Shown in pieces: positions 21-26,305 of a stretch of DNA of 37,266 nucleotides. Both the position numbers and the translations under genes were made by a program. The stretch comes from Cephaloticoccus sp. (GTDB taxonomy: Bacteria > Verrucomicrobiota > Verrucomicrobiia > Opitutales > Opitutaceae), in contig JAIPJW010000019.1 of assembly GCA_021734075.1 (NCBI GenBank), forward strand, positions 1 to 37,266, read 5' to 3'. How positions within the stretch are numbered: the stretch's first letter is position 1; every line of letters begins with the position of its first letter. The notes beneath the pieces are model-generated. The model was not told the origin of the DNA and made no database searches. It saw only the letters and a program-made list of their open reading frames with translations.

Positions 21-653
21 TTGCCTGCCACCCCGTCGGATGCCGACCGCGCCGAACTGCGGCGCCAGGGCATTCTGCTCACGAGCCTGCAGGAACTTTA
101 CACTTGGGGGAACAGCAACTCCGTCTGGCCGCTCAATTTCGGCCTCGCCTGCTGTGCGATCGAGATGATTGCCGCGTCCATGGCCAAGTTCGACATCGCA
201 CGATTTGGCTCGGAGGTTTTCCGCCCGTCGCCGCGTCAGGCCGATCTGCTTATTGTCTCCGGCACCGTCACCAAGAAAATGGCTCCGCAGGTCATCCGGC
301 TTTGGAACCAGATGCCCGAACCGAAATACTGCATTGCGATGGGGGCTTGTGCGATTTCCGGCGGCCCGTTCAAGCAGGGGTTCAACGTGCTCAAGGGCAT
401 CGACCGCTTCATCCCGGTCGACATCTACATCCCCGGTTGCCCGCCGCGGCCCGAGGCGCTCCTGCACGGGCTCGTGCAGCTGCAGAAAAAAATCAAGGGC
501 TTCAAGCTCACCGGGCCGGAGGCACCCCGCCATTTGCGGGCTGACCTGAACTGCGATTACCCGGTGCCGGAGTTTGGCGAACACGATCTCGAACCGCCGG
601 CCAACCCCGGGGTTTGGCGTGCACCCGCCATCGATCGATCGGAAAACACCTGA
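21..653 (+). CDS. nuoB: NADH-quinone oxidoreductase subunit B (cluster 1)
   Basis: NuoB carries cluster N2, the last iron-sulfur centre of complex I, and passes electrons to quinone in the peripheral arm. The N2 ligands are visible: the tandem Cys44-Cys45 in LACCAIEM, Cys110 in MGACAISGG and Cys140 in the [10 protein letters not shown] motif. The body matches the family closely. The start is uncertain: the first possible codon is TTG at 21, but the frame is open to the left edge, so the true start may lie outside the window. The C-terminus carries about 35 residues beyond the conserved core. nuoC follows after 6 bases. This is the first visible gene of cluster 1; nuoA is presumably just to the left. 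A second, distinct NuoB is encoded at 14836-15366. Confidence 0.95.
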
Positions 654-659
654 CCCGGC

Positions 660-1313
660 ATGGAAACCATCGAACAGATCCGCGACCGTTTGCTCGCCCG
701 GTTTCCCGGCGCGGAAGTCGCCGTGATCATGAATCCCAGCGCCGCGGAACAACATTCGCTTTTGATTGGCAACGCGCAGGCGGGTGACATCGCCCGGTTC
801 CTGCGCGACGACGCCACGCTCAAACTGGACCAATGCTCCAATGTCACCGGCGTCGACTGGCCGGAAAAGGAAGTCATCGATTCTAAAAAAACGAGCGTGC
901 CGGATGCGGACGGGGGTCCCGGCATGGTCATCGAGGAAAAGACCAAGCGCATCGAGCCCGGCTATCTGGAGGTCGTCTATCACCTCTACTCCATCGCCTT
1001 GCGCCACGGTCCGGTGATTCTGCGTCTGCGCACTGGCAACCGCACCGATCTGGTCACGGTGCCCTCACTGACCCCGGTGTGGCGGTCGTGCGAGTTTCAG
1101 GAACGCGAGGTGTTCGATCTCTACGGGGTGGTCTTTGCGGGGCATCCCGATCTCCGGCGCATATTGATGTGGGATGGGTTCAAGGACCATCCGATGCGCA
1201 AGGACTACGTCGAGCCCGACGACTACGAGTGGGAGCCCACCCCGCACGGTGACGTGCTCGAGAAAGCCAAGGCGCATTATCCGCCCGCGGCCAAACCGGA
1301 GGGCGCAGCATGA
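660..1313 (+). CDS. nuoC: NADH-quinone oxidoreductase subunit C (cluster 1)
   Basis: NuoC (30 kDa-type) is a peripheral-arm subunit without cofactors that packs against NuoD near the quinone site. The 217-residue product has the family signature in its C-terminal half: [20 protein letters not shown] followed by [11 protein letters not shown], which is diagnostic. The middle contains a charged insertion (about residues 75-100, rich in Lys, Asp and Gly) before the conserved EVVYHLYS strand. The start ATG at 660 lies 6 bases after the nuoB stop. The stop overlaps the nuoD start (ATGA), implying translational coupling. Confidence 0.95.
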
Positions 1314-2482
1314 GTATTTCCGATCCCCTGGCGCTTGCCGGTGGTGGCGGTGCGCAGGTGCGCGCCGTGCACGATGAATTTCACGGCGATCTCCTCGAGG
1401 TATCGATGGGGCCGCACCACCCGTCCACCCACGGGGTGTTCCGCATGATCGTGACGCTGGACGGCGAACAGATCGTCAAGCTCAAGCCCGTCTTCGGTTA
1501 TCTGCACCGCAACCACGAAAAGATCGCCGAGAACACGTCCTATCTCGGCTCGATGCCTTACACCGACCGGCTGGATTATTTTTGTTCGATGACGAACAAC
1601 TGGGCCTACGCTCTGGCGGTGGAAAAACTCTCCGGGCAACCCGTGCCCGAACGCGCGGAATACCTCCGCGTCATTCTGGCCGAGCTCACCCGGCTCCTGA
1701 ATCACACCTGTCTGGCGGGCTTTCTCATGCAGGACTGCGGGTGCTCGGGCACGCCGCTGATGTATGCCTTTCGCGAGCGCGAAAAGATCCTCGATCTCTT
1801 CGAGTCGCTCAGCGGCTCGCGCATGATGTGCAACTACCAGCGGTTTGGCGGCTGCCGGGTCGGTCCGTCGGCCGACTGGCTGGAGGCGGCCCGGAAATTG
1901 GCCGCCGGCTACGGCAAGTTTCTCGATGAGTTCGAGGCCTTGCTCACCGGCAACGAGATCATCATGGCGCGCACGCAGGGCGTGGGCCGGCTCTCACCGG
2001 AACTCGCCATCAGCGCCGGCATCACCGGCCCGATGTTGCGGGCGGCGGGGGTCAACTACGATTTGCGCAAGGTGGATGGCTACGGGGTCTATCCGCGGTT
2101 TGATTTTCGCATTCCCCTGGGCGACCACGGCGACGTTTACGACCGCTACATGATCCGCGTCCTCGAAATGCGGGAATCGATCAAGATCCTGGAACAGGCC
2201 TTTGCCGGCCTGCCCGCCGGTCCCATTTTGGATGCGAAAGCCAAGAACCGGGGCTTTCGCCCCAAGCCCGGTGAGGCTTACGGACGCATCGAGGGGCCCA
2301 AGGGTGAGATCGGTTTCTATTTGATCAGTGACGGTGGCGCCAATCCGCTGCGCTATCGGATCCGCCCGCCTTCCTTCATCAACTTGACCGTGCTCGAGGA
2401 CCTCTGCCTCGGCCGCACCGTGGCCGATGCGGTGGTGATCCTGGGTTCCATTGACATCGTCCTCGGGGAGGTCGACCGATGA
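1310..2482 (+). CDS. nuoD: NADH-quinone oxidoreductase subunit D (cluster 1)
   Basis: NuoD (49 kDa-type, related to [NiFe]-hydrogenase large subunits) forms the quinone-reduction cavity together with NuoB. The 390-residue product shows [14 protein letters not shown] near the N-terminus, [12 protein letters not shown], the NxxLNHT-type segment and the invariant C-terminal LGEVDR ending, so it is full length. It overlaps nuoC by ATGA. Unusually for a nuo operon it is not followed by nuoE-F-G: a 160-base gap with a large palindrome comes next and then nuoI. Confidence 0.96.
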
Positions 2483-2526
2483 AAATGCCAGGGCTAATAT
2501 CGCTAAATTTCGGGAGTCATTCCGTT

Positions 2527-2641: not shown

Positions 2642-3250
2642 ATGCTCGGCTCCGGCATCATCAAGGGTCTCGCCGTCACCGCGAAAAATTTCGTGGGCAG
2701 CTTTCATGACCCGGCCCGTTATACCACGGTCGAGTATCCGGAGGTTAAGCCGAAGTTGCCGGAGGCTTATCGCAATTTCCCGTTTCTGGTCTCCGAGACC
2801 GCCGCGGATCCGATGGGCACGCTCCGTTGCGTGGCCTGCAAAATCTGCGAGAAGGAATGTCCGCCGCAGTGCATCTATATTGTCCGCGAGACCGACGAGA
2901 AGGGCAAACCGAAGCCGGTGCCCAAGGTTTTCGACATCGATATCTCCGTGTGCATGAGCTGCCAGATTTGCGTCGAGGTCTGCCCTTTCGATGCGATCAA
3001 GATGGACCAGGAATTCGAGATCGCTAAGACCGGTCGTTTCACGGAGCTGCTGCTCAACCGCGAACAACTGGCGAAGCCCAACTCCTACTACCACCAGATA
3101 CATCCGCAGGAGGCCGCCGGAGTGGATGCGGCCCTCGCGGAGCAAAAAGCCAAGGCTGAGGCGGCCAAGGCAGCCAAAGCGGCGAAGGCCGCCGCCGCCA
3201 TCGCGCCGAAAGCGGCCGAGCCTCCGCCCCCAACGCCGCCTGCCCCATGA
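2642..3250 (+). CDS. nuoI: NADH-quinone oxidoreductase subunit I (cluster 1)
   Basis: NuoI is the 8Fe ferredoxin-like subunit that holds clusters N6a and N6b and relays electrons to N2 in NuoB. Two CxxCxxCxxxCP motifs are present: Cys63, 66, 69, 73 and Cys104, 107, 110, 114. An extra Cys77 follows the first. At 202 residues it is longer than the usual 160-180 because of a low-complexity tail of Ala-Lys repeats followed by a Pro-rich end (about the last 40 residues). Gene order is I then H, the reverse of the usual H then I and of cluster 2. The stop overlaps the nuoH start. Confidence 0.95.
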   Translation: MLGSGIIKGLAVTAKNFVGSFHDPARYTTVEYPEVKPKLPEAYRNFPFLVSETAADPMGTLRCVACKICEKECPPQCIYIVRETDEKGKPKPVPKVFDIDISVCMSCQICVEVCPFDAIKMDQEFEIAKTGRFTELLLNREQLAKPNSYYHQIHPQEAAGVDAALAEQKAKAEAAKAAKAAKAAAAIAPKAAEPPPPTPPAP

Positions 3251-4479
3251 ACGCGACCGTGCTCAACGACGCTCTGCTGGAACGCGCGCCGCTACTGCTG
3301 CGCGATGCGGTCACCGGGTTTCTCCCCGAACCCTGGCGCGGGTTGGTCAACAGTTTGGTCACCATCGCGGTCATTCTCGCGGTCTTTGGGGTGCTCTTCG
3401 CCTTCCTCACCCTGGCCGAAAGAAAAATTTTGGGCCGTGTGCAGAACCGCCCCGGCCCCAACCGCGCCCCTTTGCCCTTTTTCAAGAAAATCCGCACCTA
3501 CGGTCTCGCGCAGCCTTTCGCCGACGGCGTGAAGGCGTTGACCAAGGAGGATCTGGTGCCGCGCGGGGCGGACAAGCTGCTGCACTTTCTGGCCCCCGTC
3601 GCCCTCTTGGCGTTTTCCATCCTCACCTTTGCCGTGCTGCCCTACGGGCGTCATCTCGTGCCGGTGGAACTCGACGCCGCGGTCCTCTATTTTTTCGCGG
3701 CCGGGGCGGCGACGGAGCTCGCGGTTTTCATGGCGGGTTGGTCGAGCCATAATAAATATTCACTGCTCGCCGCGATGCGCGCCCTCGCGCAGCTCATCAG
3801 TTACGAACTGCCGTTGCTCCTCTCGTGGGTGCCGGTGGTAATGCTCGCCGGCACACTTTCCACCACCGGGATTGTCGACGCGCAAGCGGGTTGGCACGGC
3901 GGTTTTGTCCCAAACTGGCACGTGTTCACGCCGTGGGGTTTCGCCGGCTTCGTCATCTTCATGGTGTCCGCGCTGGCGGAATCAAATCGTTCGCCCTTCG
4001 ATCTGCCCGAGGCGGAAAGCGAACTCATCGCCGGTCATCTCACGGAATACAGCGGTTTCAAATACGCCCTCTTCTTCATGGCGGAGTATTTCGGCATGAT
4101 CGCGCTCAGCGGCATGGCGATCACGCTCTTCCTCGGCGGCTGGCGCGCGCCGCTGCCCTTCCTCACCTTCATTCCCTCCTACCTCTGGTTCGGCGGCAAA
4201 CTGCTCGTGCTGCTGCTCGGCTTCATCTGGATCCGCGCGACGTTGCCCCGCCTGCGCATTGATCAGCTCATGCGCTTTGCCTGGAAATTCCTCGTGCCGC
4301 TCGCGTTGATCAACCTTGTCAACGCGGCCGTCTGGTCCCTCACCGCCGGTTGGTCCGGCCCGCTGCAGCTCGTGCGTTGGGCCGGGTGCCTGGCGCTGGT
4401 CATCGTGCCGTTCATTGTGCTGGGGCGCAGCCAGAGTGCCGGCGTCGCCCCGCGCATCTATCGTTTCGCCGCGTCATGA
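3247..4479 (+). CDS. nuoH: NADH-quinone oxidoreductase subunit H (cluster 1)
   Basis: NuoH is the membrane subunit that joins the two arms and lines the quinone channel. Family signatures are AERKILGRVQNRPGPNR, QPFADGVKALTKEDLVP, the N-K-Y-S-LLAAMRALAQLISYE stretch and FDLPEAESELIAG.LTEYSG with its conserved acidic residues. At 410 residues it is longer than a typical 330-350-residue NuoH. About 30 residues of the excess are an N-terminal stretch before the first membrane segment; the rest lies in loops and the C-terminus. It overlaps nuoI upstream and nuoJ downstream. Confidence 0.95.
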   Translation: MNATVLNDALLERAPLLLRDAVTGFLPEPWRGLVNSLVTIAVILAVFGVLFAFLTLAERKILGRVQNRPGPNRAPLPFFKKIRTYGLAQPFADGVKALTKEDLVPRGADKLLHFLAPVALLAFSILTFAVLPYGRHLVPVELDAAVLYFFAAGAATELAVFMAGWSSHNKYSLLAAMRALAQLISYELPLLLSWVPVVMLAGTLSTTGIVDAQAGWHGGFVPNWHVFTPWGFAGFVIFMVSALAESNRSPFDLPEAESELIAGHLTEYSGFKYALFFMAEYFGMIALSGMAITLFLGGWRAPLPFLTFIPSYLWFGGKLLVLLLGFIWIRATLPRLRIDQLMRFAWKFLVPLALINLVNAAVWSLTAGWSGPLQLVRWAGCLALVIVPFIVLGRSQSAGVAPRIYRFAAS

Positions 4480-5093
4480 GCCTTCCGCTGATCATCTTTA
4501 CGCTGCTTATCCTGGGCGCCGCCAGCGCGGCGCTGACGCGGCGCAACCTGATTCACAGTGCGCTCTTGCTGGTGTTAACTTGGGCGGGCATCGCGGGCTT
4601 TTATCTTTGGGCCGGCGCCGAGTTTGTCGCCTTTGCCCAAGTCCTGATTTATGTGGGCGCCATCTCCATGGTGGTGCTGTTTGCGGTATTGTTGACCCGC
4701 CAGAACCCCGCGGATGTGGTGATCAGTCCCTCTTCCCATCGGCGCGCGGTCAGCGCGATTTTGGTCGGGGCCCTGACTCTGGCCGTGCTGGGTGCGGCGG
4801 TGTGGCAGACCCCGTTTCCTCCCGGACCCGCGTCAGCCCCCGAGCTTTCCGTGCTGCAGCTCGGGCAGCAACTCATGGGCCCGCACGCGGCCGCGGTGCT
4901 GGTGATCGGCGTCCTGCTCACCGTGGCCCTGCTCGGTGCGACCATTATTGCCTCGAGTGAAAAGACCGAAGCATCTCCAGTAGGGCCGGACCTTGGTCCG
5001 GCCGAAAAAGGCACGCACCAAGGTGCGGCCCTACCTCGCGCCCGCGGGCAGCCGCAAGGTGCGGCCCCACAGAAACGGGAGGAAGCGCCATGA
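4476..5093 (+). CDS. nuoJ: NADH-quinone oxidoreductase subunit J with repeat-derived C-terminal tail (cluster 1)
   Basis: NuoJ is a small membrane subunit between NuoH and NuoN. The start is taken as ATG 4476 because it overlaps the nuoH stop; an upstream in-frame start at 4350 would lie inside nuoH. The 205-residue product has five likely membrane segments and the family stretch FAQVLIYVGAISMVVLFAVLL with its pi-bulge region. The last membrane segment ends near TIIASSEK (about residue 166). The remaining roughly 39 residues are encoded by a GTAGGG-type palindromic repeat plus a partial second copy, giving a Gly/Pro/Arg-rich tail unrelated to the family. The frame stays open through the repeat to the overlap with nuoK. 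Confidence 0.93.
   Translation: MSLPLIIFTLLILGAASAALTRRNLIHSALLLVLTWAGIAGFYLWAGAEFVAFAQVLIYVGAISMVVLFAVLLTRQNPADVVISPSSHRRAVSAILVGALTLAVLGAAVWQTPFPPGPASAPELSVLQLGQQLMGPHAAAVLVIGVLLTVALLGATIIASSEKTEASPVGPDLGPAEKGTHQGAALPRARGQPQGAAPQKREEAP
4980..5034. repeat. GTAGGG-type palindrome inside the 3' end of nuoJ
   Basis: The ends GTAGGGCC (4980-4987) and GGCCCTAC (5027-5034) are exact reverse complements. Inside are two short palindromes, GGACCTTGGTCC and CACCAAGGTG. A partial further copy of the right half (CGCAAGGTGCGGCCCCAC) follows at about 5053-5070. Its internal motifs match the repeats at 21028 and 24740 in the other nuo operon. Here the element is translated as the C-terminal tail of NuoJ. 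Confidence 0.88.
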
Positions 5094-5401
5094 ATCCCCT
5101 GACGCTCTGCCTGTTGCTCTCGAGCGCCCTTTTCTGCATCGGCCTGACGGCGGCCCTGGCACGCAGCAACACCATCCTGGTGCTGCTCGGAATCGAGGTC
5201 ATGCTCAACGCGGCCTGTCTCAACTTCATCGCCTTCTGGCGCTTTGGACCCAACCCGGCCCCGGCCTCGGGCGTGATCTTTGTGCTCTTTGCCATTGCGG
5301 TCGCCGCCGCCGAGGCCGCCGTGGGACTAGCCCTGGTGATCGCAATTTACCGGCATCAGAAAAACATCCGGCTGCAGGAGGCCACGCGCCTGAAGGGCTG
5401 A
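5090..5401 (+). CDS. nuoK: NADH-quinone oxidoreductase subunit K (cluster 1)
   Basis: NuoK is a three-helix membrane subunit related to MrpC, part of the proton path between NuoH and NuoN. The 103-residue product matches the normal size and keeps the two membrane glutamates of the family, in LLGIEVMLNAACLN and AAAEAAVGLALV. The start overlaps the nuoJ stop (ATGA). A GGAGG-like sequence (cgggaggaagcgcc) lies just upstream, within the end of nuoJ. nuoL follows after 3 bases. Confidence 0.95.
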   Translation: MNPLTLCLLLSSALFCIGLTAALARSNTILVLLGIEVMLNAACLNFIAFWRFGPNPAPASGVIFVLFAIAVAAAEAAVGLALVIAIYRHQKNIRLQEATRLKG

Positions 5402-5404
5402 ACC

Positions 5405-7435
5405 ATGAGCCTCTCCGTCCAAAACATCTGGTTGATTCCCGCCCTGCCCCTGGTGGCCGCGGCGATCACCGCCCTGCTGCCGCGCGGGGCCCGCCGTCTG
5501 GCCTCGGCCCTTGCGATCGGGGCGCTCGCGCTTTCATTCCTCCTTTCCTGCGGCGCGCTGGTGACGGCCTTGGCCGATCCGGCGGCGCATGCCGTCGCCA
5601 ATTTTGCCTGGTTTGATCTGGGCGCCACAGCCGTGAGACTGGGCTGGTTGCTCGACCCCCTGACCGCGTTCATGTGCGTGATGGTCACCTTTGTCGGCAC
5701 GCTGATCTTTGTTTTTTCTACCGGTTACATGGCGGAGGACGCGAACGCCAAACAGTTCTTCTGCTTCCTCAGTCTCTTTGCCGCCGCGATGCTCGGCCTG
5801 ATCGTGGCCAACAGCCTACTGTTGCTCTTTGTCAGTTGGGAATTGGTCGGCCTCGCCTCGTATCTGCTCATCGGGTTTTGGTTCCACAAACCCGCGGCCG
5901 CGGCCGCGGCCAAGAAGGCGTTCATCACCACGCGCATCGGTGATCTCGGATTTTTGCTGGGGCTGGTCTGGCTCTATGACGCGCGCGGCACCCTCCTCCT
6001 CTTTGATGGCGGTGCCGGGATCTTGGAACTGACCTCGCTGCACGTGCTGTCCTCCACGCTGGTTGGCGGTGGACTTGCGGCATCCACGGCCATCGGGCTC
6101 CTGCTCTTCTGTGGCGCGGCGGGCAAGTCCGGTCAGTTCCCGCTGCACGTGTGGTTGCCGGATGCGATGGAAGGCCCGACTCCGGTCTCCGCCCTGATCC
6201 ATGCGGCCACCATGGTGGCCGCGGGTGTCTTCCTAATGGCGCGGGTTTATCCGTTGATGGCGGTTGATCAGGTGTTGTCCGGCGTGCCGGTGCATGCGCT
6301 GACCATCGTCGCCTTTATCGGCGCGATCACAGCGCTGCTGGGGGCCTGCATTGCGGTGGCGCAAAACGACCTCAAGCGCGTGCTCGCCTTTTCCACGGTG
6401 TCACAACTCGGCTACATGATGCTCGCGATCGGCGTCGGCTCCTGGGTCGCGGCAATTTTCCATTTGCTGACGCATGCCTTCTTCAAGGCCCTGCTCTTTT
6501 TGGGTGCCGGATCCGTCATTCACGCGGTGCATCACGAGCAGGACATGCGGCAACTCGGCGGCCTGCGCGGGAAGATGAAGGTCACCTTCCTCACCTTTGC
6601 GGTGGGCATGATGGCGCTGTCCGGCGTGCCGTTCCTTTTCTCGGGTTTCTGGAGCAAGGAGGGCATCCTGCACGCGGCGCATGCCTGGGATGTTTCGCAT
6701 CTGCCCTTCTACATCGGTCTCGCGGCAGTGGTGCTGACAGCTTTCTACATGACGCGCCTGGTGTTCGAGGTTTTCTTTGGCCAACCGCGCAGTCCGGCAG
6801 CGGAACACGCGCACGAAAGCCCGGCCGCGTTGACCGTGCCCCTTGTGCTGCTGGCCATCGGTGCCGTGGCCCTGGGTTTTCTCGGCACCCCGGCCTGGCC
6901 GTGGCTGCAGGCCAAACTCCTGGGTGAAACCGAAGTCCACGGTCATCCTATTTTTGGTGAAGGCACCGGGTTGATGATGCTATCCATCCTGCTGGTCGGC
7001 GCCGGTCTGGCGCTGGGTTGGTGGCTTTACGGCCGCAAGTTGCGGACCACTGCGACAGCCCGCGATCCCCTCGAGGTGGCGGTGCCCGGCGTGTTTGCCG
7101 CTTTGGCGGCGCGCCTGGGTTTCGATGAACTTTATGCCGCCACGCTATTTCGGGTTAACGATGCCGTGGCTTTTCTCGCGGACTTCCTTGACCGCTGGGT
7201 CTGGGCTGGGGTCGTGCGCGGCCTGGCCGCCCTCGGTCGTTGGGTGGGGGTAATGAATCTCGATACCGACGAGCAGATCATTAATGGGGGCTTTGACCGC
7301 ACCAGTGCGGCGGTGCGGACCAGTGGCCGGGCCTACTCCCGCGCCCAGACCGGCGATGCCCACGGCTACCTGCTCACCATCGCGGTCGGATTTGTGGTGC
7401 TGGTGGTGTTGCTTGTGATCGGAGGTGCCCGATGA
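5405..7435 (+). CDS. nuoL: NADH-quinone oxidoreductase subunit L with long C-terminal arm (cluster 1)
   Basis: NuoL is the distal antiporter-like proton pump of complex I and carries a lateral amphipathic helix that runs along the membrane arm. The 676-residue product has the key residues: Glu146 in FVSWELVGL (TM5), Lys241 in GKSGQFPLHVW (TM7) and the GPTPVSALIHAATMV stretch. From FDELY near residue 572 to the last membrane helix there are about 82 residues, against roughly 50-57 that I recall for E. coli and Paracoccus NuoL. The family QTG motif is recognisable (RAQTGDAHGYLL). The longer arm fits the fourth antiporter-like subunit encoded two genes downstream. It overlaps nuoM by ATGA. Confidence 0.95.
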   Translation: MSLSVQNIWLIPALPLVAAAITALLPRGARRLASALAIGALALSFLLSCGALVTALADPAAHAVANFAWFDLGATAVRLGWLLDPLTAFMCVMVTFVGTLIFVFSTGYMAEDANAKQFFCFLSLFAAAMLGLIVANSLLLLFVSWELVGLASYLLIGFWFHKPAAAAAAKKAFITTRIGDLGFLLGLVWLYDARGTLLLFDGGAGILELTSLHVLSSTLVGGGLAASTAIGLLLFCGAAGKSGQFPLHVWLPDAMEGPTPVSALIHAATMVAAGVFLMARVYPLMAVDQVLSGVPVHALTIVAFIGAITALLGACIAVAQNDLKRVLAFSTVSQLGYMMLAIGVGSWVAAIFHLLTHAFFKALLFLGAGSVIHAVHHEQDMRQLGGLRGKMKVTFLTFAVGMMALSGVPFLFSGFWSKEGILHAAHAWDVSHLPFYIGLAAVVLTAFYMTRLVFEVFFGQPRSPAAEHAHESPAALTVPLVLLAIGAVALGFLGTPAWPWLQAKLLGETEVHGHPIFGEGTGLMMLSILLVGAGLALGWWLYGRKLRTTATARDPLEVAVPGVFAALAARLGFDELYAATLFRVNDAVAFLADFLDRWVWAGVVRGLAALGRWVGVMNLDTDEQIINGGFDRTSAAVRTSGRAYSRAQTGDAHGYLLTIAVGFVVLVVLLVIGGAR

Positions 7436-18666: not shown

Positions 18667-19196
18667 GTGAAATACCCTTCGCCCCAGTGATCGTGCTCGC
18701 GATCTTCGCGCTCATTGTGGGCGTCACGGTCGCGGGTGCGCTGATTGCGGCGCTCAGCACGCGCATCATCCGGGGTGTCGCCGGTTTGATGGTCTGCTGC
18801 GTGGGCATTGCCGGGCTCTACTTTTTTCTCAACAGCCCTTTTCTCGCCCTGATGGAGATTCTCATCTATGTGGGTGCGGTCTGCATCACCATCGTTTTTG
18901 GCGTAATGCTTTCCGAGACCGACGAGCCCGCCTCGAACGCGTCACGCCGGTCCGGCATCCTCTGGGGTGGTTCGGCCATGTTGGTTGCGGCCGTGGTGTG
19001 GGTGACGTTGTCCCGGCTCAGTCTCGCCGGACCCTGGCCGGTGCCCGCCACGCTGGTCAGCGACGGCTCGATCCGCGCGATCGGGCTGGCCCTGCTGACG
19101 ACCTACAGCCTGCCGTTTGAACTCATTTCGCTGGTGCTCCTCGTGGCCATTCTGGGCGCGCTGGTGATCGCCCGAGCCGGGAGGACCAAGGAATGA
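18663..19196 (+). CDS. nuoJ: NADH-quinone oxidoreductase subunit J (cluster 2)
   Basis: A 177-residue membrane protein with five likely helices and the family stretch ALMEILIYVGAVCITIVFGVML. It ends normally at LVIARAGRTKE, without the repeat-encoded tail found in the cluster 1 NuoJ, which is a useful comparison for that tail. It overlaps nuoI and nuoK by ATGA. Confidence 0.94.
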   Translation: MSEIPFAPVIVLAIFALIVGVTVAGALIAALSTRIIRGVAGLMVCCVGIAGLYFFLNSPFLALMEILIYVGAVCITIVFGVMLSETDEPASNASRRSGILWGGSAMLVAAVVWVTLSRLSLAGPWPVPATLVSDGSIRAIGLALLTTYSLPFELISLVLLVAILGALVIARAGRTKE

Positions 19197-19519
19197 ACCT
19201 GCTCCAGATCCACCAACAGCCGGCCATCTACTTTGTGCTCGCGGCGTTCCTGCTCGCCACCGGCATCTACGGCTTGATCCGCCGCCGCACCCTCATCGGC
19301 ATGCTCATCGCCGGCGAACTCATCTTTGCCGCGGCCTCGCTGAACCTCATGACCGTGAATCGCTTTTTTGCGCCCGATCCCACGGTTGGCCAGATCTTCG
19401 TGCTCTTCATCATGGGTCTTGCGGCGGCCGAGGTCGCCATCGCCCTCAGCATCATCATCGCGGTTTATCGCAACTACCGCTCGATCCATCCCTCCGACAT
19501 CTCGGAACTCAACCGCTGA
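19193..19519 (+). CDS. nuoK: NADH-quinone oxidoreductase subunit K (cluster 2)
   Basis: A 108-residue, three-helix subunit related to MrpC. Both membrane glutamates are present, in LIAGELIFAAASLNLM and GLAAAEVAIALSIII. The start overlaps the nuoJ stop. The next gene, an MrpD/NuoL-type subunit, begins 3 bases after the stop. Confidence 0.95.
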   Translation: MNLLQIHQQPAIYFVLAAFLLATGIYGLIRRRTLIGMLIAGELIFAAASLNLMTVNRFFAPDPTVGQIFVLFIMGLAAAEVAIALSIIIAVYRNYRSIHPSDISELNR

Positions 19520-19522
19520 CCC

Positions 19523-20998
19523 ATGGACGCGCCCCAAGACATCCGCCTGCTGATCGCGATTCTCGCCCCACTCCTCGGGGCGGGTCTGGTCATGGCGACG
19601 GGCAAGCGCCCCAACCTGCGCGAAGCCTGCTCCCTGCTCGCCGCGGTGGTCCTGTTCGGCGTCGTGGTCTCGCTCGTGCCCGCCGTGCTGGCCGGTGAAA
19701 AGCTGCGTTACACGCTTTTCGAGCTGCTCCCGGGCCTGAGCTTCACCCTCCGCGCCGACGCCCTCTCGATGATCTTTGCCGTGGCCGCCTCTTTCTTGTG
19801 GCTGCTGACGATCTTCTATTCGGCGGGCTACATGCGCAGCCTGGGTGAGCACGCGCAGACGCGGTTCAACACCTGCTTCGCGCTCGCGATCTTCGGCGCC
19901 ATCGGCGTCGCCTTCGCCGACAACCTGCTCACCCTCTATCTCTTTTACGAGATCGTCAGCGTCTGCACCTACCCGCTGGTCGCCCACCACCAGGATGCGG
20001 AAAGCTACGAGGGCGCCAAAAAGTATATCTCTTACCTGACCACCACGGCCAAGGGGCTCATTCTGCCGGCGATGGTCCTCATCTACGTGCTTTCGGGCAC
20101 GCTCGATTTTGCGACCAACATCTCGACCGGCATCATTCCCCTGGGAGTGCACAACGGTTTGGTCACCATCCTCTACATCTGCTGCATCCTCGGCTTCGCC
20201 AAGAACGGCGTCATGCCGCTGCACAACTGGTTGCCGAGCGCCATGGTCGCGCCGACTCCGGTCAGCGCCCTGCTCCATGCCGTGGCGGTTGTGAAGGTCG
20301 GTGTGTTCTCGACCGTCCGGGTGATGCTCTACGTCTTCGGCGTCGACACGATGGACCGGCTCAACCTCGGCCTGCCCACGGCCTGGTTTGTCGCCATCAC
20401 CATTCTGGTTGGCTCGGTCGTCGCTCTGAGCAAGGACAACCTGAAGGCGCGGCTCGCCTACTCCACCGTCAGCCAGCTGTCCTACATCATCCTCGGCGTG
20501 GCGCTGCTCACCCCCACGGGCATTGCCGGCGGCCTCTTTCACATCGCGGCCCACGCTTTCGCCAAGATCACCTTGTTCTTCTGCGCCGGCGCGATCTATG
20601 TCGCCACGCACAAGAAGAACATTTCGGAAATGAACGGACTCGGTCGCGCCATGCCGTGGACCTTCGGCGCCTTTGCCTTGGCCTCCCTCAGCATGATCGG
20701 CGTGCCGCCGGTGGGCGGGTTCATTTCCAAGCTATACCTCCTCGTCGGCGCACTGGACGCCAACTCGATCGGCATCCTGATTGTGCTGATCGCCAGCTCC
20801 GTGCTCAACGCGGCCTACTTTGTCCCGGTAATTTACCAGGGCTTTTTCGGGCAGACCCCCTCGACCGATGCCGGGCATCATCACGGCGAGGCTCCGCTTG
20901 CGATGGTGGTGCCGCTGTGCATCACCGCCGCAATCTCGGTGCTTATCGGCATCTACCCCGACTTTTTCATGCGCCTGGCCCAGGCCGTCGTATCATGA
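19523..20998 (+). CDS. MrpD/NuoL-type antiporter-like subunit without C-terminal arm (cluster 2)
   Basis: A 491-residue proton-antiporter-type membrane protein standing where nuoL is expected. It has the TM5 glutamate in LYLFYEIVSVCTYPLV, Lys227 in GFAKNGVMPLHNWLP (TM7), the PTPVSALLHAVAVVKVG stretch with a TM8 lysine, and a TM12 lysine in GGFISKLYLL. It ends soon after the fourteenth helix, so it lacks the lateral helix of NuoL. This is typical of MrpD-like subunits of Na+/H+ antiporters and of Mrp-linked complex I variants. With NuoL, M and N downstream it makes a fourth pump-like subunit. Annotation as NuoL or MrpD is equally defensible; ion specificity (H+ or Na+) cannot be read from the sequence. 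Confidence 0.9.
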   Translation: MDAPQDIRLLIAILAPLLGAGLVMATGKRPNLREACSLLAAVVLFGVVVSLVPAVLAGEKLRYTLFELLPGLSFTLRADALSMIFAVAASFLWLLTIFYSAGYMRSLGEHAQTRFNTCFALAIFGAIGVAFADNLLTLYLFYEIVSVCTYPLVAHHQDAESYEGAKKYISYLTTTAKGLILPAMVLIYVLSGTLDFATNISTGIIPLGVHNGLVTILYICCILGFAKNGVMPLHNWLPSAMVAPTPVSALLHAVAVVKVGVFSTVRVMLYVFGVDTMDRLNLGLPTAWFVAITILVGSVVALSKDNLKARLAYSTVSQLSYIILGVALLTPTGIAGGLFHIAAHAFAKITLFFCAGAIYVATHKKNISEMNGLGRAMPWTFGAFALASLSMIGVPPVGGFISKLYLLVGALDANSIGILIVLIASSVLNAAYFVPVIYQGFFGQTPSTDAGHHHGEAPLAMVVPLCITAAISVLIGIYPDFFMRLAQAVVS

Positions 20999-21027: not shown

Positions 21028-21095
21028 GTAGGGCTGGACCTTGGTCCATGCCTTTCGTTTGGAAAGAACCGGCGTGCACCAAGGTGCAGCCCTAC
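21028..21095. repeat. GTAGGG-type palindrome between two antiporter-like genes
   Basis: The ends GTAGGGCTG and CAGCCCTAC are exact reverse complements over 9 bases. Inside are GGACCTTGGTCC on the left and CACCAAGGTG on the right. It is closely similar over its whole length to the copy at 24740-24808, apart from the central loop. It creates a false upstream extension of the following small gene (open from 21041), so the real start is later. Confidence 0.88.
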
Positions 21096-21148
21096 CCCGG
21101 AATCGGCGTTCTCGCCAGTCGCTACTCACCACTCGCTACTGCCCAGCC

Positions 21149-21403
21149 ATGCTTCGCTTTATTGAATTTCTTCGCCGTCACCTGAAGGTCGTCATTCGCG
21201 TCTGCCTGGCGTTGCTGGTCGTGCTCATCGTCGTCGACGCGATTCCGCTGTTTGTCGACAAGCACCACGCCCACACTGCGGCCGAGCATGTCCCGGGATT
21301 CTGGTCGGTGTTTGGTTTCATTGCCTGTGCCCTGATCGTCTACGTCTCCAAGGCCTTCGGCCACAGCGGCATCATGACCCGGGAGGATTACTACGATGAG
21401 TGA
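21149..21403 (+). CDS. Small two-helix membrane protein inside cluster 2
   Basis: An 84-residue product from ATG 21149. The frame extends upstream to 21041, but that part is encoded by the palindromic repeat and is not believed. A basic N-terminus (FLRRHLK) leads into VVIRVCLALLVVLIVVDAIPLFV, a His-rich loop (DKHHAHTAAEH), a second helix FWSVFGFIACALIVYVSKAFG, and the acidic end REDYYDE. The stop overlaps the start of nuoL (ATG 21396). I recall small proteins with an EDYYD-like end near Mrp/NuoL-type genes elsewhere but cannot name the family. It is probably an accessory subunit or assembly factor of this complex. Confidence 0.78.
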   Translation: MLRFIEFLRRHLKVVIRVCLALLVVLIVVDAIPLFVDKHHAHTAAEHVPGFWSVFGFIACALIVYVSKAFGHSGIMTREDYYDE

Positions 21404-23192
21404 CCTCTGGCTGCATCCCTCGTTGATCCTGCTGGTCGGCGGCCTGCTGCTGCCGCTCCTGCCGGCCAAGTTGCGCCCGGCCTGGCTGGTCTTCATCCCC
21501 GTGCTGACCTTTGCCCGCATCGTGATGCTGGCCAAGGGCACCTTTGGCGTGGTGCATTTTCTCCAGTTCACCCTGACCTTTGGTCGCGTCGATGCCCTCA
21601 GTTCCGTCTTCGCCTACATCATGGGTCTGATGTGCATCCTGGGTTCCCTTTACGGCCTGCACGTGAAACGCTCGGTCGAGCACAGCGCGGCGTGGACCTA
21701 CGTGGCCGGGTCGCTCGGCGCGATCCTCGCGGGCGATCTGCTCACCCTCTTTCTCTTCTGGGAATTGATGGCGATCTCGTCGGTCTTCCTGATCTGGTTC
21801 CGCGGTCGCGAGCAATCCCTCGGGGCCGGCTTCCGCTACCTGCTGGTCCACATGGTCGGCGGCGTGGTCTTCCTCGCCGGCATCATCCTGCAATATCACG
21901 CCTCCGGCGGCGACCTTTCCTTCGGTCTCTTCGACGTCCATCACATGAGCCTCGCGGGTTGGCTGATCATGACGGGCTTCATCCTCAATGCCGCCGTGCC
22001 CCCGCTGCACGCCTGGCTGCCCGACGCCTACGGCGAGGCCACCTTCAACGGTTCGGTTTTCCTCTGCGCTTTCACCACCAAGACCGCCGTCTATGCACTG
22101 ATCCGCGGCTTTGCCGGGTTGGAAATACTCGTCGTGCTCGGTGTCATCATGGCGCTCTACGGGGTGGTATACGCGGTGTTGGAAAACGACAGCCGCCGCC
22201 TGCTCGCCTACCACATCGTCAGCCAGGTCGGCTACATGGTGGCCGCGGTCGGTCTCGGCACCCAACTCGCCATCAACGGCGCGGTGGCCCACGCCTTCGC
22301 CCACATTCTTTACAAGGGCCTGCTCTTCATGGGTTGCGGCTCCGTGCTTTACATGACGGGCAAGAGCAAGTTCACCGACCTCGGCGGGCTCTATAAAAAG
22401 ATGCCCTGGACCTTCGCCTTCACCCTGATCGGCGGACTGTCGATCTCGGCCTTCCCGCTCTTCAGTGGGTTTGTCAGCAAGTCGATGATCGTCCAGGCCG
22501 GCTTCGAGGATCACAAACTCTGGGTCGGCTTCCTGCTCCTCCTCGCCTCCGCCGGAACGTTCCTGCACACCGGTCTGAAGGTGCCTTACTTCATCTGGTT
22601 CGGCAAAAACCACTGCGAGCAGGAAACCTGGGAACGCGCCGCCGAGCCACCATGGAACATGCTGGCCGCCATGGCGCTCACCGCCTTCCTCTGCATCTTC
22701 ATCGGCTGCTACACGCCGTATCTCTACCGGATGTTGCCCTACCCGGTGGACTTCGTGCCCTACACGTCCTACCACGTGTCGGAGACCCTGCAGATCCTGC
22801 TCTTCACCGCCGCCGGTTTCTTCCTGCTGATCAAGAAGCTCGAGCCCGAGGCCAAGATCAGCCTCGACCTCGACTGGCCCTACCGCATCGGCGGCCGCGC
22901 CTTCCTCTGGATCGCCCGGAAACCCGTGCAATTCATCGACACCGCGATCGGCGAGATCTACCGCGTGGGCGGCCTCGTCCCGCTGATGTTCACCGCCCGG
23001 CTCTCCGCCGTTTTTGACAACTCCATCATTGATGGCGCGGTCGATGGTCTGGCCAACACCGTGCGCAACCTTGGCGGACGCCTCCGTTCGGCCCAACGTG
23101 GCGCCCTGCAGGAAAATCTCACCATCGCCTTCGGCGTCGCCGCGGTGCTCGTGATCCTGTTTCTCCTCATCTTCAACACCGTCGCCCGATGA
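21396..23192 (+). CDS. nuoL: NuoL-type subunit with long lateral-helix arm (cluster 2)
   Basis: A 598-residue antiporter-like subunit with a C-terminal arm of about 80 residues before a last membrane helix (AIAFGVAAVLVILFLLIF in essence), matching the NuoL lateral helix and final anchor. Charged positions seen: Glu123 in FLFWELMAISS (TM5), Lys229 in FTTKTAVYAL (TM8) and Lys362 in GFVSKSMIV (TM12). The TM7 lysine is replaced: the aligned residue in FILNAAVPPLHAW is Asn198 (codon AAT at 21987). It starts inside the small upstream gene and overlaps nuoM by ATGA. The arm is similar in length to that of cluster 1 NuoL, which suits a four-pump membrane arm. Databases may call it Na+/H+ antiporter subunit D. 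Confidence 0.9.
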   Translation: MSDLWLHPSLILLVGGLLLPLLPAKLRPAWLVFIPVLTFARIVMLAKGTFGVVHFLQFTLTFGRVDALSSVFAYIMGLMCILGSLYGLHVKRSVEHSAAWTYVAGSLGAILAGDLLTLFLFWELMAISSVFLIWFRGREQSLGAGFRYLLVHMVGGVVFLAGIILQYHASGGDLSFGLFDVHHMSLAGWLIMTGFILNAAVPPLHAWLPDAYGEATFNGSVFLCAFTTKTAVYALIRGFAGLEILVVLGVIMALYGVVYAVLENDSRRLLAYHIVSQVGYMVAAVGLGTQLAINGAVAHAFAHILYKGLLFMGCGSVLYMTGKSKFTDLGGLYKKMPWTFAFTLIGGLSISAFPLFSGFVSKSMIVQAGFEDHKLWVGFLLLLASAGTFLHTGLKVPYFIWFGKNHCEQETWERAAEPPWNMLAAMALTAFLCIFIGCYTPYLYRMLPYPVDFVPYTSYHVSETLQILLFTAAGFFLLIKKLEPEAKISLDLDWPYRIGGRAFLWIARKPVQFIDTAIGEIYRVGGLVPLMFTARLSAVFDNSIIDGAVDGLANTVRNLGGRLRSAQRGALQENLTIAFGVAAVLVILFLLIFNTVAR

Positions 23193-24670
23193 CGACCCTG
23201 ACCCAACTCACCGCCAACTGGCCCCTGCTCAGCGTGCTGATTTTCAGTCCGCTGGTGGCCGCCGTGGTCACGGCTTTCATCGGCAACGAGCGCCTGTTGC
23301 GCTGGTGGACCTTTGCCAGCACCACGGTCATCGCCCTCGTCTCGCTCCCGCTCTGGGGCCGCTTCGATGCCGACACGGCCGTATTCCAGTTCCGCGAGCA
23401 AGCGGCGTGGATCCCCTCGCTGAAGATCGACTACTCCCTCGGCATCGACGGCATCAGCCTGCTACTCGTGTTGCTCACGACGCTGATCATGCCGCTCTGC
23501 GTGCTCGCCTCGTGGAACTACATCAAGGTCCGGATCAAGGAGTTCATGCTCTGCCTGCTCGTCATGGAGGCGGCGATGATCGGTGTCTTCAGTGCGCTGG
23601 ATGCGATTCTGTTTTTCATCTTCTGGGAATCGATGCTGATCCCCATGGCCATTTTGATCGGGGTCTGGGGCGGACCGCGCAAGGTCTATGCCTCGCTCAA
23701 GTTCTTCATTTACACGATGTCCGGCTCCATCTTCCTGCTGGTCGCACTCATCGCGCTGCGCCTGCAGACCGGCAGCTTCAGCATCCCCGGCATGATGGGG
23801 CAGGGTTTTTCGGACGGATTCCAGTTCTGGGTCTTCGCCGCGTTCTTTCTTTCCTTCGCGATCAAGGTGCCGATGTTCCCGTTCCACACCTGGTTGCCGG
23901 CGGCGCACGTCGAGGCGCCCACCGCGGGCAGTGTGATTCTGGCCAGCGTGCTCCTGAAGATGGGCACCTACGGTTTCCTGCGCTTCTGCCTGCCGATCAC
24001 GCCGCATGCCACCCAGGTCTTTGCCCCGTGGGTGCTCGGCCTCTCGGTCATTGCCATCCTTTATGGTGGCATGACCGCCCTTGCGCAGAGCGACCTCAAG
24101 AAAATGGTCGCCTACTCCAGCGTGGGGCACATGGGCTTCGCCACGCTCGGTATTTTCTCCCTCAACGTGAACGGACTCGAGGGTGCCACCTTGGTGATGA
24201 TCAACCACGGCATCACCACGGGAGCGCTCTTCATCTGTGTCGGCATCATCTACGAGCGGCTTCACACACGTGACCTCGGCGAGGTCGCCGGCATCGGCAA
24301 GTTCATGCCGGTCTTCGCCGGTTTCTTCGGCGTTTTCTGTCTCTCGTCCCTCGCGTTCCCCGGCACCAACAGCTTCATCGGCGAATTCCTCGTGCTCGCG
24401 GGCAGCTTTGCCCATTCGAAAATTGTCACCGCCTTTGCCGTGCCGGGAGTCGTGCTCGCCGCCGCCTACATGTTCCGCACCCTGCAACGAGTCGCCTGGG
24501 GTGGCACCAACAACCCGAAGCATCACGATCTGCACGATCTCGACTTCCGCGAAATCGTCACCCTCACCCCATTGCTCGTTTTCGTTTTCTGGATCGGGCT
24601 GCACCCGCAACCTTTCGTCCACGTCATGCACGCCTCGGTGGTGCAAATCCTTCAATTCGCCAACGGCTAA
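23189..24670 (+). CDS. nuoM: NADH-quinone oxidoreductase subunit M (cluster 2)
   Basis: A 493-residue NuoM with all expected charged positions: the TM5 glutamate in FIFWESMLIPMAILI, Lys226 in FAIKVPMFPFHTWLP (TM7), the TM8 lysine in LLKMGTYGFLR and the TM12 glutamate in SFIGEFLVLAG. It is the only M-type gene of this cluster. The stop at 24670 is followed by 174 bases, including a palindromic repeat, before nuoN, so the tight packing of the operon is interrupted here. Confidence 0.95.
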   Translation: MTTLTQLTANWPLLSVLIFSPLVAAVVTAFIGNERLLRWWTFASTTVIALVSLPLWGRFDADTAVFQFREQAAWIPSLKIDYSLGIDGISLLLVLLTTLIMPLCVLASWNYIKVRIKEFMLCLLVMEAAMIGVFSALDAILFFIFWESMLIPMAILIGVWGGPRKVYASLKFFIYTMSGSIFLLVALIALRLQTGSFSIPGMMGQGFSDGFQFWVFAAFFLSFAIKVPMFPFHTWLPAAHVEAPTAGSVILASVLLKMGTYGFLRFCLPITPHATQVFAPWVLGLSVIAILYGGMTALAQSDLKKMVAYSSVGHMGFATLGIFSLNVNGLEGATLVMINHGITTGALFICVGIIYERLHTRDLGEVAGIGKFMPVFAGFFGVFCLSSLAFPGTNSFIGEFLVLAGSFAHSKIVTAFAVPGVVLAAAYMFRTLQRVAWGGTNNPKHHDLHDLDFREIVTLTPLLVFVFWIGLHPQPFVHVMHASVVQILQFANG

Positions 24671-24739
24671 TCCACCCATGATACCGACGATTTTGAAAAG
24701 TTTTTCAGCCGGTTCGCACTTAGGCATCCCGTTTGTTTA

Positions 24740-24808
24740 TAGGGCTGGATCTTGGTCCATGCCGTCCGGTTTGTTGGATTCCAGGCGTGCACCAAGGTGC
24801 AGCCCTAC
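24740..24808. repeat. GTAGGG-type palindrome between nuoM and nuoN (cluster 2)
   Basis: TAGGGCTG (24740-24747) and CAGCCCTA (24800-24807) are exact reverse complements, with CTTGGTCC and CACCAAGGTG inside. The first base of the usual GTAGGG is A here. It closely resembles the copy at 21028-21095. Like that copy it opens a false upstream extension of the next gene. Confidence 0.87.
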
Positions 24809-24844
24809 GATTCGGTGCGCCCACCCTCAATCCTACATCCCGGC

Positions 24845-26305
24845 ATGAACTCGTCCTCCTTCATCGCGTTTTTGCCCGAGTTGGTGCTGCTGACCGGCGC
24901 CTTGGTGCTGTTCTTTGTCACCCTGGGTGAAAAGCTCGTCGCCCGCGCCCGGCTGGTCGCGCTCATCACGGCCGTTGCGGTCATTGCCGCGTCCATCCTG
25001 AGCTTTCACCAGACTGCCGTGCTCTTCACCGGGGCCTATCGCATCGATGCCTTTTCCCAGCTCCTCAAGCTGGTGCTCAGCGGTGGCTTTGCCGCCGTGT
25101 TGCTGCTCAGTGGTCCGCTGCCCGACATCCGGGAACGCATCCGGCCGGAATACTACCTCTTCCTCACGCTCAGTGTCACCGGGTTGATCATGCTGGTGAG
25201 CTGTGTCGACGTGATCGCGTTGATCATCGCGCTCGAGCTGTCGTCCTTTCCGCTCTACATGCTTGTGCCGATGCGCCGGGAACGCGAGGGCCAGCGCGCG
25301 CAGATGGAGGCCGCGGTCAAATACATCATGTTCGGCGTCGCGGCCAACGGGCTGATGCTCTTCGGCGTGAGCTACCTCTTTGGCCTGACCGGCACCACCT
25401 CATTGCCGCTCATGCTGGAAAGACTGGCTCCGGTCGTCCATTCGCCGCTCGCCATCGTCGGTCTCGCCCTCACCTTCTGCGGTCTCTTCTACAAGCTGGC
25501 CGTCTTCCCCTTCCATTTCTGGACGCCCGACGTTTATCAGGGTGCCGCCAACGAGACTGCCAGCCTGATCGCCTCGCTGCCCAAGGTCGGGGCCATCGCC
25601 GTGCTGGTGCGCTTCACTTCGCTCGCCTCCACCGAGAACCATACGCTCGCGCTGCTGCTCACCGGCCTGGCGGTCATCTCGATGTTCTACGGCAATTTGA
25701 TCGCGCTCGGCCAAAAGGATTTCAAGCGCCTGCTCGGCTTTTCGAGCATCGCCCACGCCGGTTATGCCGTCGTCGGTTTTGTCGCCCTGAGCGAGGCGGG
25801 CTCGGCCGCGGCGCTCTATTACATCACCGGCTACATGGTGATGGTCCTGGCCTGCTTCACGGTGATCAGCCGCGTCTCCCGTGACGGCACCAACGTCGCC
25901 ATCTCGGAGCTGGCTGGTCTCCACCGCCGCTCGCCCCTGCTCGCCGCCACCCTGATCATCGGGGTCTTCGGCCTTGCCGGCATCCCACCCTTCGTGGGCT
26001 TCATGGGTAAACTTTCCCTGCTCACCGCTGCACTGGCGAAGGGCTACCTCGGCCTGGTCATCGTGACGATGATCAACGCCGCCATCGCGGTTTACTATTA
26101 CCTCCGCGTGATCCGCGAGGCCATCTTCGGCGACCCGGGGGTAAATGCCGCGCCGATCATCCTCACGACCTCGACCCGCATTCTCTGCGTCACCCTGATC
26201 GTGGTGATCATCGCGCTGGGGGTGGCTCCGTCCGCAGTGATGGATGCCATCGGCAGTTCGCTAGCGGAGATCAATGCCCCCGTGGTCACGACCTATGTGC
26301 CCTGA
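24845..26305 (+). CDS. nuoN: NADH-quinone oxidoreductase subunit N (cluster 2)
   Basis: NuoN of 486 residues from ATG 24845. An in-frame ATG at 24752 lies inside the palindrome and would add 31 residues encoded by repeat DNA, so it is rejected. Family signatures are FYKLAVFPFHFWTPDVYQGAAN with the TM7 lysine, LPKVGAIAVLVRF with the TM8 lysine, and IPPFVGFMGKLSLL with the TM12 lysine. It is the last gene of cluster 2, as nuoN is in cluster 1. Confidence 0.95.
   Translation: MNSSSFIAFLPELVLLTGALVLFFVTLGEKLVARARLVALITAVAVIAASILSFHQTAVLFTGAYRIDAFSQLLKLVLSGGFAAVLLLSGPLPDIRERIRPEYYLFLTLSVTGLIMLVSCVDVIALIIALELSSFPLYMLVPMRREREGQRAQMEAAVKYIMFGVAANGLMLFGVSYLFGLTGTTSLPLMLERLAPVVHSPLAIVGLALTFCGLFYKLAVFPFHFWTPDVYQGAANETASLIASLPKVGAIAVLVRFTSLASTENHTLALLLTGLAVISMFYGNLIALGQKDFKRLLGFSSIAHAGYAVVGFVALSEAGSAAALYYITGYMVMVLACFTVISRVSRDGTNVAISELAGLHRRSPLLAATLIIGVFGLAGIPPFVGFMGKLSLLTAALAKGYLGLVIVTMINAAIAVYYYLRVIREAIFGDPGVNAAPIILTTSTRILCVTLIVVIIALGVAPSAVMDAIGSSLAEINAPVVTTYVP

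Follow-up and report, generated by a model that had tools for sequence, protein, structure and literature searches.

The 37,266 nucleotides of Cephaloticoccus sp. DNA analysed here (contig JAIPJW010000019.1 of assembly GCA_021734075.1, our C190; hereafter the window) belong to a draft genome of 3.53 Mb that is 91% complete, and they carry two operons for complex I, each containing four genes of antiporter-like subunits. The products of both are probably membrane-bound complex I enzymes that pump ions, lack the NADH module and would be fed by reduced ferredoxin: cluster 1 a 2M complex I, with a second NuoM and a normal quinone site, and cluster 2 a green-type complex I, with a Da-sm-Lx module and an altered quinone site. 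Gene content and order, the long arms, the lost NADH module, the residue changes and the linkage in relatives are read directly from the sequence. In normal complex I there are three antiporter-like subunits; variants with a second M or a second L were reportedly described by Chadwick and colleagues in 2018 and are said to have been proposed to move an additional proton.

Gene content of the two operons

Genes were named by profile searches with Pfam and NCBIfam/TIGRFAM families, using the cut-offs of the families. Eleven proteins of the genome match PF00361; eight of them are encoded in the window and three on contig C44, where they belong to a third complex I of ordinary type (c3) that is split across contigs C173 and C44 and has nuoE, F and G. 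The preliminary description of the window, made from its letters alone, had proposed two different four-antiporter complex I clusters side by side, and the profile searches bear this out: the eight PF00361 proteins lie where it had placed them, and cluster 1 ends at 11905, 2.56 kb before the nuoA start of cluster 2 at 14465. The order of cluster 1, from the contig start to 11905, is B-C-D-I-H-J-K-L-M-M2-N, with nuoA, which precedes B in relatives, beyond the contig end; that of cluster 2 (14465-26305) is A-B-C-D-H-I-J-K-Da-sm-Lx-M-N. The nuoC and nuoJ products of both clusters, NuoI of cluster 1 and NuoN of cluster 2 scored below the family cut-offs yet had no better match, and nuoB and nuoN of cluster 2 likely start at 14836 and 24845, respectively.

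Cluster 1 nuoB, 21..653, + strand: NF011394, 322 bits (cut-off 312); 5' end uncertain, the contig beginning at 1; cysteines readable
Cluster 1 nuoC, 660..1313, + strand: TIGR01961, 105 bits (below cut-off 122)
Cluster 1 nuoD, 1310..2482, + strand: NF004739, 415 bits (cut-off 360); quinone-site Tyr kept (PYTDR)
Cluster 1 nuoI, 2642..3250, + strand: TIGR01971, 89.5 bits (below cut-off 113); two 4Fe-4S motifs
Cluster 1 nuoH, 3247..4479, + strand: NF004741, 305.4 bits (cut-off 305)
Cluster 1 nuoJ, 4476..5093, + strand: NF005168, 94 bits (below cut-off); C-terminal tail formed by an interspersed repeat
Cluster 1 nuoK, 5090..5401, + strand: NF004320, 90 bits (cut-off 57)
Cluster 1 nuoL, 5405..7435, + strand: 676 aa; NF005141, 634 bits (cut-off 556); arm lengthened to 104 aa (FDELY to C-terminus)
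Cluster 1 nuoM (first M), 7432..8949, + strand: TIGR01972, 464 bits; Glu, Lys, Lys and Glu in transmembrane helices (TM) 5, 7, 8 and 12
Cluster 1 nuoM2 (second M), 8946..10442, + strand: TIGR01972, 427 bits; TM7 Lys replaced by Leu
Cluster 1 nuoN, 10439..11905, + strand: TIGR01770, 354 bits (cut-off 332.6)
Cluster 2 nuoA, 14465..14851, + strand: PF00507, 84.6 bits
Cluster 2 nuoB, 14836..15366, + strand: NF005012, 234 bits (cut-off 116)
Cluster 2 nuoC, 15363..15920, + strand: TIGR01961, 90 bits (below cut-off)
Cluster 2 nuoD, 15917..17056, + strand: NF004739, 419 bits (cut-off 360); quinone-site Tyr replaced by Asn (LPNPSR)
Cluster 2 nuoH, 17032..18096, + strand: NF004741, 305.1 bits (cut-off 305)
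Cluster 2 nuoI, 18100..18666, + strand: TIGR01971, 116 bits (cut-off 113); two 4Fe-4S motifs
Cluster 2 nuoJ, 18663..19196, + strand: NF005163, 93 bits (below cut-off)
Cluster 2 nuoK, 19193..19519, + strand: NF004320, 74 bits (cut-off 57)
Cluster 2 Da, Mrp-type antiporter-like subunit, 19523..20998, + strand: NF006236 ('MrpD'), 832 bits (cut-off 663); NuoL/MrpA side of the tree
Cluster 2 sm, conserved small protein, 21149..21403, + strand: 84 aa; two predicted long helices; overlaps the Lx start
Cluster 2 Lx, 21396..23192, + strand: NF009310 (PRK12668), 750 bits (cut-off 564); antiporter-like core, 71-residue arm helix and C-terminal helix; TM7 Lys replaced by Asn
Cluster 2 nuoM, 23189..24670, + strand: TIGR01972, 595 bits
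Cluster 2 nuoN, 24845..26305, + strand: TIGR01770, 331.9 bits (0.7 below cut-off); open frame from 24752

Cluster 1, a 2M complex I

The antiporter tree (frames of at least 380 aa; a quick search with several long branches) placed cluster 1 NuoL in the NuoL clade (99), M and M2 in the NuoM clade (100) and N in the NuoN clade. The two M genes are adjacent, and their products both exceed the TIGR01972 cut-off and are 35% identical to one another. The composition NuoL, M, second M and N given in the preliminary description is thus confirmed by the profiles and the tree. M2 as a recent in-place copy of M was rejected at this level of identity; the tree groups it with the NuoM of the genome's own c3, on long branches.

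Arm length, counted from the FDELY/FDxLY motif to the C-terminus, is 104 residues in cluster 1 NuoL as against 73 in Escherichia coli, 75 in T. elongatus, 77 in the own c3 and in the c3 of the relative G003, and 80 in Paracoccus; two further NuoL-sized frames (L034 and L035, not otherwise identified) also have 77. Arms of 104-105 residues recur in the cluster 1-type NuoL of 14 of 15 genomes, the motif giving no match in the fifteenth (L229): the length is 104 in L037, L040 and L042 and 104-105 in 11 of 12 further loci (L238 is a repeat of L040). Cluster 1 has both marks of a 2M enzyme, namely a second NuoM beside the first and an insertion of approximately 26 residues in the NuoL arm, and a second NuoM with a lengthened NuoL is what is described for published 2M enzymes (PMC6606698, PMC9040806; papers given by PMC number are cited from their accessible parts). 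The genes of cluster 1 make it a 2M complex I (L-M-M2-N), likened to the published enzymes by description, as their sequences lie outside our tree. It shares with the 2M complex I of Nitrospira and others the second NuoM after the first, a NuoL arm approximately 24-31 residues longer and the absence of NuoE and NuoF (PMC9040806, PMC6606698). Nitrospira CI_1, however, is described as being without nuoH and having an enlarged NuoG (PMC6606698), whereas cluster 1 has nuoH and no nuoG.

Cluster 2, a green-type complex I

The preliminary description had taken the protein at 21396-23192 (Lx) for a NuoL with arm, i.e., for an enzyme of the second-L type. Lx does have a NuoL-like long arm but lies outside the NuoL clade, and NuoL is replaced by two Mrp-type subunits. 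Both Da and Lx match curated 'antiporter subunit D' families above the cut-off; neither falls within the NuoL clade, although Da branches on the NuoL/MrpA side, and stand-alone Mrp-type antiporters are found in the clades of both. A duplicated NuoL in cluster 2 was rejected on these tree positions. Foldseek searches with Lx matched NuoL, MrpA and MrpD, all at large root mean square deviation, and do not place it. In the earlier gene list of cluster 2 the antiporter-like genes had been placed correctly, while sm (21149-21403) had been overlooked.

A green complex I of rhizobia was reportedly described by Degli Esposti and Martinez Romero in 2016. In the rhizobial enzyme two MrpD-like subunits replace NuoL (PMC9040806), and the block J-K-Da-sm-Lx-M-N is found in identical order on Sinorhizobium meliloti pSymA, although there with nuoE, F and G, which cluster 2 lacks. 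In the NuoD tree the cluster 2 type forms a clade of its own (100/99) with Verrucomicrobiota and deltaproteobacteria-type relatives and with S. meliloti NuoD outside (one subunit, long branches), so that it is the pump block, not the whole enzyme, that is clearly common to cluster 2 and S. meliloti. On its gene content cluster 2 is a green-type complex I, in which NuoL is replaced by two Mrp-type subunits (Da and Lx) flanking sm. Two green-type MrpD-like subunits within complex I are also described for Complex_I_3 of 'Ca. Manganitrophaceae', which differs in combining two MrpD, two NuoM and NuoN, i.e., five pumps, in one enzyme and in having a further 26-residue insertion in MrpD2 (PMC9040806); in the window the extra M and the MrpD pair are split over two adjacent operons. 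A different order, K-M-Da-sm-Lx-N, was seen in another complex I of Desulfocapsa-type genomes (L125, L126 and L130), the NuoD of L126 having Leu at the quinone site.

The Da-sm-Lx trio is shared with a stand-alone Mrp-type antiporter of the same family (L057), ordered MrpE-F-G-MbhD-MbhE/MnhB-MrpC-MrpD-Da-sm-Lx, which unlike cluster 2 has a different Lx arm and no redox genes that we recognised. Profile searches recognised no MrpB/E/F/G-type gene in cluster 2; such genes are present in L057.

The small protein sm and the Lx arm

The Lx loci were surveyed in the best 80 of at least 580 relatives, a sample in which near kin are over-represented. An sm-like gene of approximately 84 codons lies between Da and Lx in 78 of the 80 loci, and the other two begin at a contig end. 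Over 68 residues the small protein of S. meliloti shares 43% identity with sm, and the counterpart in L057 is picked up by a profile, so that sm occurs in clusters of three kinds: complex I, rhizobial and stand-alone Mrp-type. sm itself matched no Pfam or NCBIfam family; nine of 40 members weakly match PF01578 (best 7.5e-05), which we take as membrane-helix noise, and against the PDB the sm alignment gave weak matches only, the best (E 0.0012) to a light-harvesting protein. The model of sm has two long helices, 12-31 and 51-73, with a predicted local distance difference test score (pLDDT) of 86. We take sm as a putative subunit of the Da-Lx module.

Lx is modelled (pLDDT 85.5, predicted template modelling score 0.81, weakest at 560-572) as an antiporter core followed by a single helix at 494-564 and a last helix at 571-597. 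Compared with window Lx (frames of more than 550 aa), the complex-I-type proteins are 60-90% identical in the core and 36-80% in the arm, the ten stand-alone-type rows 46-76% and 15-24%, and S. meliloti Lx 55% and 27%, respectively. The stand-alone L149 has a core 76% identical, as close as those of Verrucomicrobiota complex-I proteins, with which it groups (99), and an arm of 20% identity. The simplest reading would be that cores have moved between antiporter and complex I and that the arm was replaced to match the new setting; this supports docking as the role of the arm.

The quinone site of NuoD

In Thermus His38 and Tyr87 are the quinone headgroup residues (PMC7684303). Cluster 1 NuoD has both. 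The Tyr of the PYTDR motif, corresponding to Thermus Tyr87, is kept in five cluster 1 rows, the own c3, E. coli and four further second NuoDs, and it is present in all five PDB alignments shown. In cluster 2 the rows shown retain the His, and the Tyr is replaced by Asn in all 72 cluster-2-type rows (pieces of at least 900 bases and 100 bits; both these rows and the 83 Lx rows below include a few duplicates, some contigs being present under two locus labels). Leu stands at this position in the S. meliloti green enzyme, L126 and L210, as in HyfG of hydrogenase-4. The hydrogenase motif is DPCxxC at the C-terminus, and hydrogenase identity was rejected as no such motif was seen by eye in the NuoD sequences.

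The cluster-2-type NuoD is the sole NuoD of at least 40% identity in five of seven deltaproteobacteria-type genomes searched, and in L103 genes of rimP, nusA and infB type come after the operon; the cluster-2-type enzyme is probably the main complex I there. Quinone is therefore still the more likely acceptor of cluster 2, with changed chemistry. Acceptor chemistry or working potential, not the donor, probably sets the two window enzymes apart.

Pump residues

The pump residues of antiporter-like subunits are a TM5 Glu, a TM7 Lys, a TM8 Lys and a TM12 Lys or Glu. All eight window proteins have the TM5 and TM12 residues. The TM7 Lys is replaced by Leu in M2 (20 of 20 genomes) and by Asn in Lx (83 of 83 rows), both of which keep the TM8 Lys. 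Each cluster has three antiporter-like subunits with the usual residue set and one without the TM7 lysine. The NuoM of the own c3 (L001:3883-5415), an ordinary three-pump complex, likewise has Leu at TM7, and loss of this lysine is therefore no proof of inactivity. Ions would be moved by at least the three full-set subunits of each complex, the contribution of the fourth being uncertain. The additional proton suggested in the preliminary description is unproven and, with one subunit per cluster lacking the TM7 lysine, should not be assumed.

The electron donor

Searches with E. coli, S. meliloti and own queries (tblastn) found no NuoE, F or G in the window or within the cluster 1 and cluster 2 operons of the loci examined, and PF01512 has no match on C190. 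The NuoE/F/G-like genes closest to such loci are those of L093 and L097, on the downstream side at a distance of approximately 5 kb or more. The ferredoxin-oxidoreductase genes korAB stand beside cluster 1 and/or cluster 2 in five relatives: between the clusters in G021, G043 and G006, before cluster 2 alone in G003, and divergently beside cluster 1 alone in G085. Ferredoxin is therefore the likely donor, and reduced ferredoxin as the donor of both clusters is the best inference from gene linkage. The 11-subunit complex I of Desulfitobacterium has three antiporter-like subunits as against four in each window cluster. It is likewise without NuoEFG, and electron input from pyruvate:ferredoxin oxidoreductase (PFOR)/ferredoxin has been proposed for it (PMC11238625). 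A division of labour by electron donor, as suggested in the preliminary description, is not likely: both clusters lack the NADH module, both are korAB-linked in some relatives, and their differences are on the pump and acceptor side.

The genome also holds five POR_N-type proteins. Its contigs C125, C22 and C51 (L064, L065 and L066) together hold two [FeFe] hydrogenase loci with NuoF-like partners, one NuoF-like protein fused to a pyridine-nucleotide reductase domain and, on C51, a NuoF/NuoG-like pair.

Distribution in related genomes

Complex I genes stand beside Lx in 72 of the best 80 Lx loci: 66 have core genes, and six are cut upstream and have M or N. The remaining eight comprise seven stand-alone loci and one (L154, 3.8 kb in hand) too short to judge. 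That the stand-alone clusters are contig-end fragments of complex I was rejected, as in seven of the eight the complex I genes searched for are missing from 7-22 kb of sequence. In the comparison of synteny across relatives, which the preliminary description had proposed as a check, the operon order is kept, that of cluster 2 across phyla. M2 of cluster 1 occurs in five of 28 genomes with complex-I-type Lx, and in four of the five genomes with both (the window, G021, G043 and G006) cluster 1 lies directly upstream of cluster 2; in G013 a distance of 1.4 Mb separates the two. Cluster 2 lies within cluster 1, between nuoD and nuoI, in a named Verrucomicrobiota genome (L091/L233, G464:C228).

Among 387 genomes of the phylum, Lx of at least 61% identity was found in 13, M2 in 18 and both in three (own genome counted). 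Among 100 genomes of the family, 19 (own included) have Lx of at least 61% identity, all with adjoining complex I genes; eight have Lx of 42-50% identity, and the six of these inspected for context are all stand-alone. Three other genomes of the genus were drawn, and neither Lx kind was found in them.

Proposed mechanism and alternative explanations

In the scheme that we favour, reduced ferredoxin would bring electrons into both enzymes, bypassing the NADH module. In cluster 1 they would pass to (mena)quinone at the normal quinone site, and L-M-M2-N would be held together by the lengthened NuoL arm. In cluster 2 a Da-sm-Lx module like that of stand-alone Mrp-type antiporters would take the place of NuoL, with Lx at the far end and its arm helix running back along Da, M and N, and the change of Tyr to Asn at the quinone site may bring about a different acceptor chemistry or potential. 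Assembly, the ferredoxin donor, the acceptor, the direction of electron flow and the ion number are what we infer in this scheme.

Several observations weigh against it. korAB adjoins cluster 2 in just four of 13 Opitutaceae loci (at least 3.3 kb upstream covered) and cluster 1 in four of 15 (5-6 kb downstream and mostly 0-2.7 kb upstream covered), and three of the linkages represent one common arrangement. The window's own korAB lies elsewhere, on C173, and a beta-lactamase-family gene fills the slot. Contig C51 of the same genome has adjacent NuoF-like and NuoG-like genes (40% and 30%), which could be a formate dehydrogenase or a loose NADH module able to serve cluster 1 or 2. The loss of the TM7 lysine in M2 and Lx speaks against four equal pumps. 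The long C-terminal part of Lx is also not peculiar to complex I, measuring 102-106 residues in stand-alone proteins vs 99-105; it is then its sequence, not its length, that changes with context.

It is possible, if somewhat doubtful, that the extra subunits, M2 of cluster 1 and Lx of cluster 2, have a structural or regulatory role and move no ion of their own, both complexes pumping like three-pump enzymes. The invariable loss of the TM7 lysine in M2 and Lx favours this; however, the two subunits keep the TM5, TM8 and TM12 residues, and the same lysine is replaced in the NuoM of the ordinary c3. We find it unlikely that the enzymes run backwards, oxidising quinol and reducing ferredoxin at the expense of the gradient (e.g., driving KorAB reductively), with the fourth subunit adding driving force. 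Reverse flow has been proposed for the Nitrospira 2M complex (PMC6606698) and korAB linkage is compatible with either direction, but the [FeFe] hydrogenases with their NuoF-like partners and the five POR_N-type proteins could supply reduced ferredoxin, and the data analysed gave no sign of autotrophy.

Less probable still is that the acceptor of cluster 2 is not an ordinary quinone but another hydrophobic molecule. MBS, described as being without equivalents of H38 and Y87, reduces polysulfide (PMC7684303), the names of many holders are those of sulfur-cycle bacteria, and the Asn of cluster 2 and the Leu of the rhizobial green enzyme, L126 and L210 stand where cluster 1, c3, E. coli and the four further second NuoDs have Tyr. 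Against this, the rows shown retain the NuoD His, and in five of the seven deltaproteobacteria-type genomes this enzyme is probably the main complex I. That Da-sm-Lx is a separate Mrp-like antiporter merely sharing the cluster 2 operon seems very improbable to us. The preliminary description had named two findings that together would refute its view of the extra subunits: grouping of one of them with stand-alone Mrp antiporters in trees, and proteomics showing no co-purification with complex I. The first was indeed obtained for Da and Lx, and the same trio stands with MrpE, F, G, C, B and D in L057, but cluster 2 has neither NuoL nor a recognised MrpB/E/F/G-type gene, the best loci mostly have complex I genes beside Lx, the operon order is conserved and the Lx arm tracks context. 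In the favoured scheme Da, sm and Lx remain parts of the cluster 2 enzyme.

A broader proposal, to which we give little credence at present, is that cluster 2 would represent a widespread unnamed class of complex I without an NADH module, with an Asn acceptor site in NuoD, one small subunit more than usual and a pump module that stand-alone antiporters and complex I have exchanged mainly by changes in the Lx arm. In some Opitutaceae it would have a 2M complex I and a ferredoxin-producing enzyme as neighbours, allowing electrons from ferredoxin to go to ordinary quinone or to a different acceptor.

Relation to published enzymes

Both architectures are already published as known kinds. In literature searches, mostly short of full texts, we recognised neither a description of the NuoD Asn nor one of a 2M or green complex I from Verrucomicrobiota. 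As far as these searches show, the adjacency of the clusters, the change of Tyr to Asn in NuoD, the context-dependent Lx arm, sm and the loss of the TM7 lysine in one subunit per cluster are apparently unpublished. The number of ions moved by a fourth antiporter-like subunit, and what keeps such a subunit attached, are open questions in the field. A 2M, a green-type and an ordinary complex I in one genome offer a natural comparison of pump and acceptor swapping; an antiporter and a complex I have pump cores up to 76% identical and different arms; and the quinone-site tyrosine is changed throughout a clade. Together these make the function of the arm, the pump number and the need for this tyrosine directly testable.

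Other features of the window

A promoter and terminator scan of the gap between the clusters gave no signal above chance. The gap holds one gene, in the slot that korAB occupies in three relatives:

Beta-lactamase-family gene, a neighbour outside the enzymes, 12572..14056, - strand: PF00144

Interspersed repeats were seen within both operons (2531-2597, 4980-5070, 21028-21095 and 24790-24808), one of them forming the C-terminal tail of cluster 1 NuoJ and another the apparent N-terminus of cluster 2 NuoN. Downstream of the clusters the window encodes a Heparinase II/III-like protein (28081-30840, just below the family cut-off) and a Fic/DOC-family protein (33952-35439).

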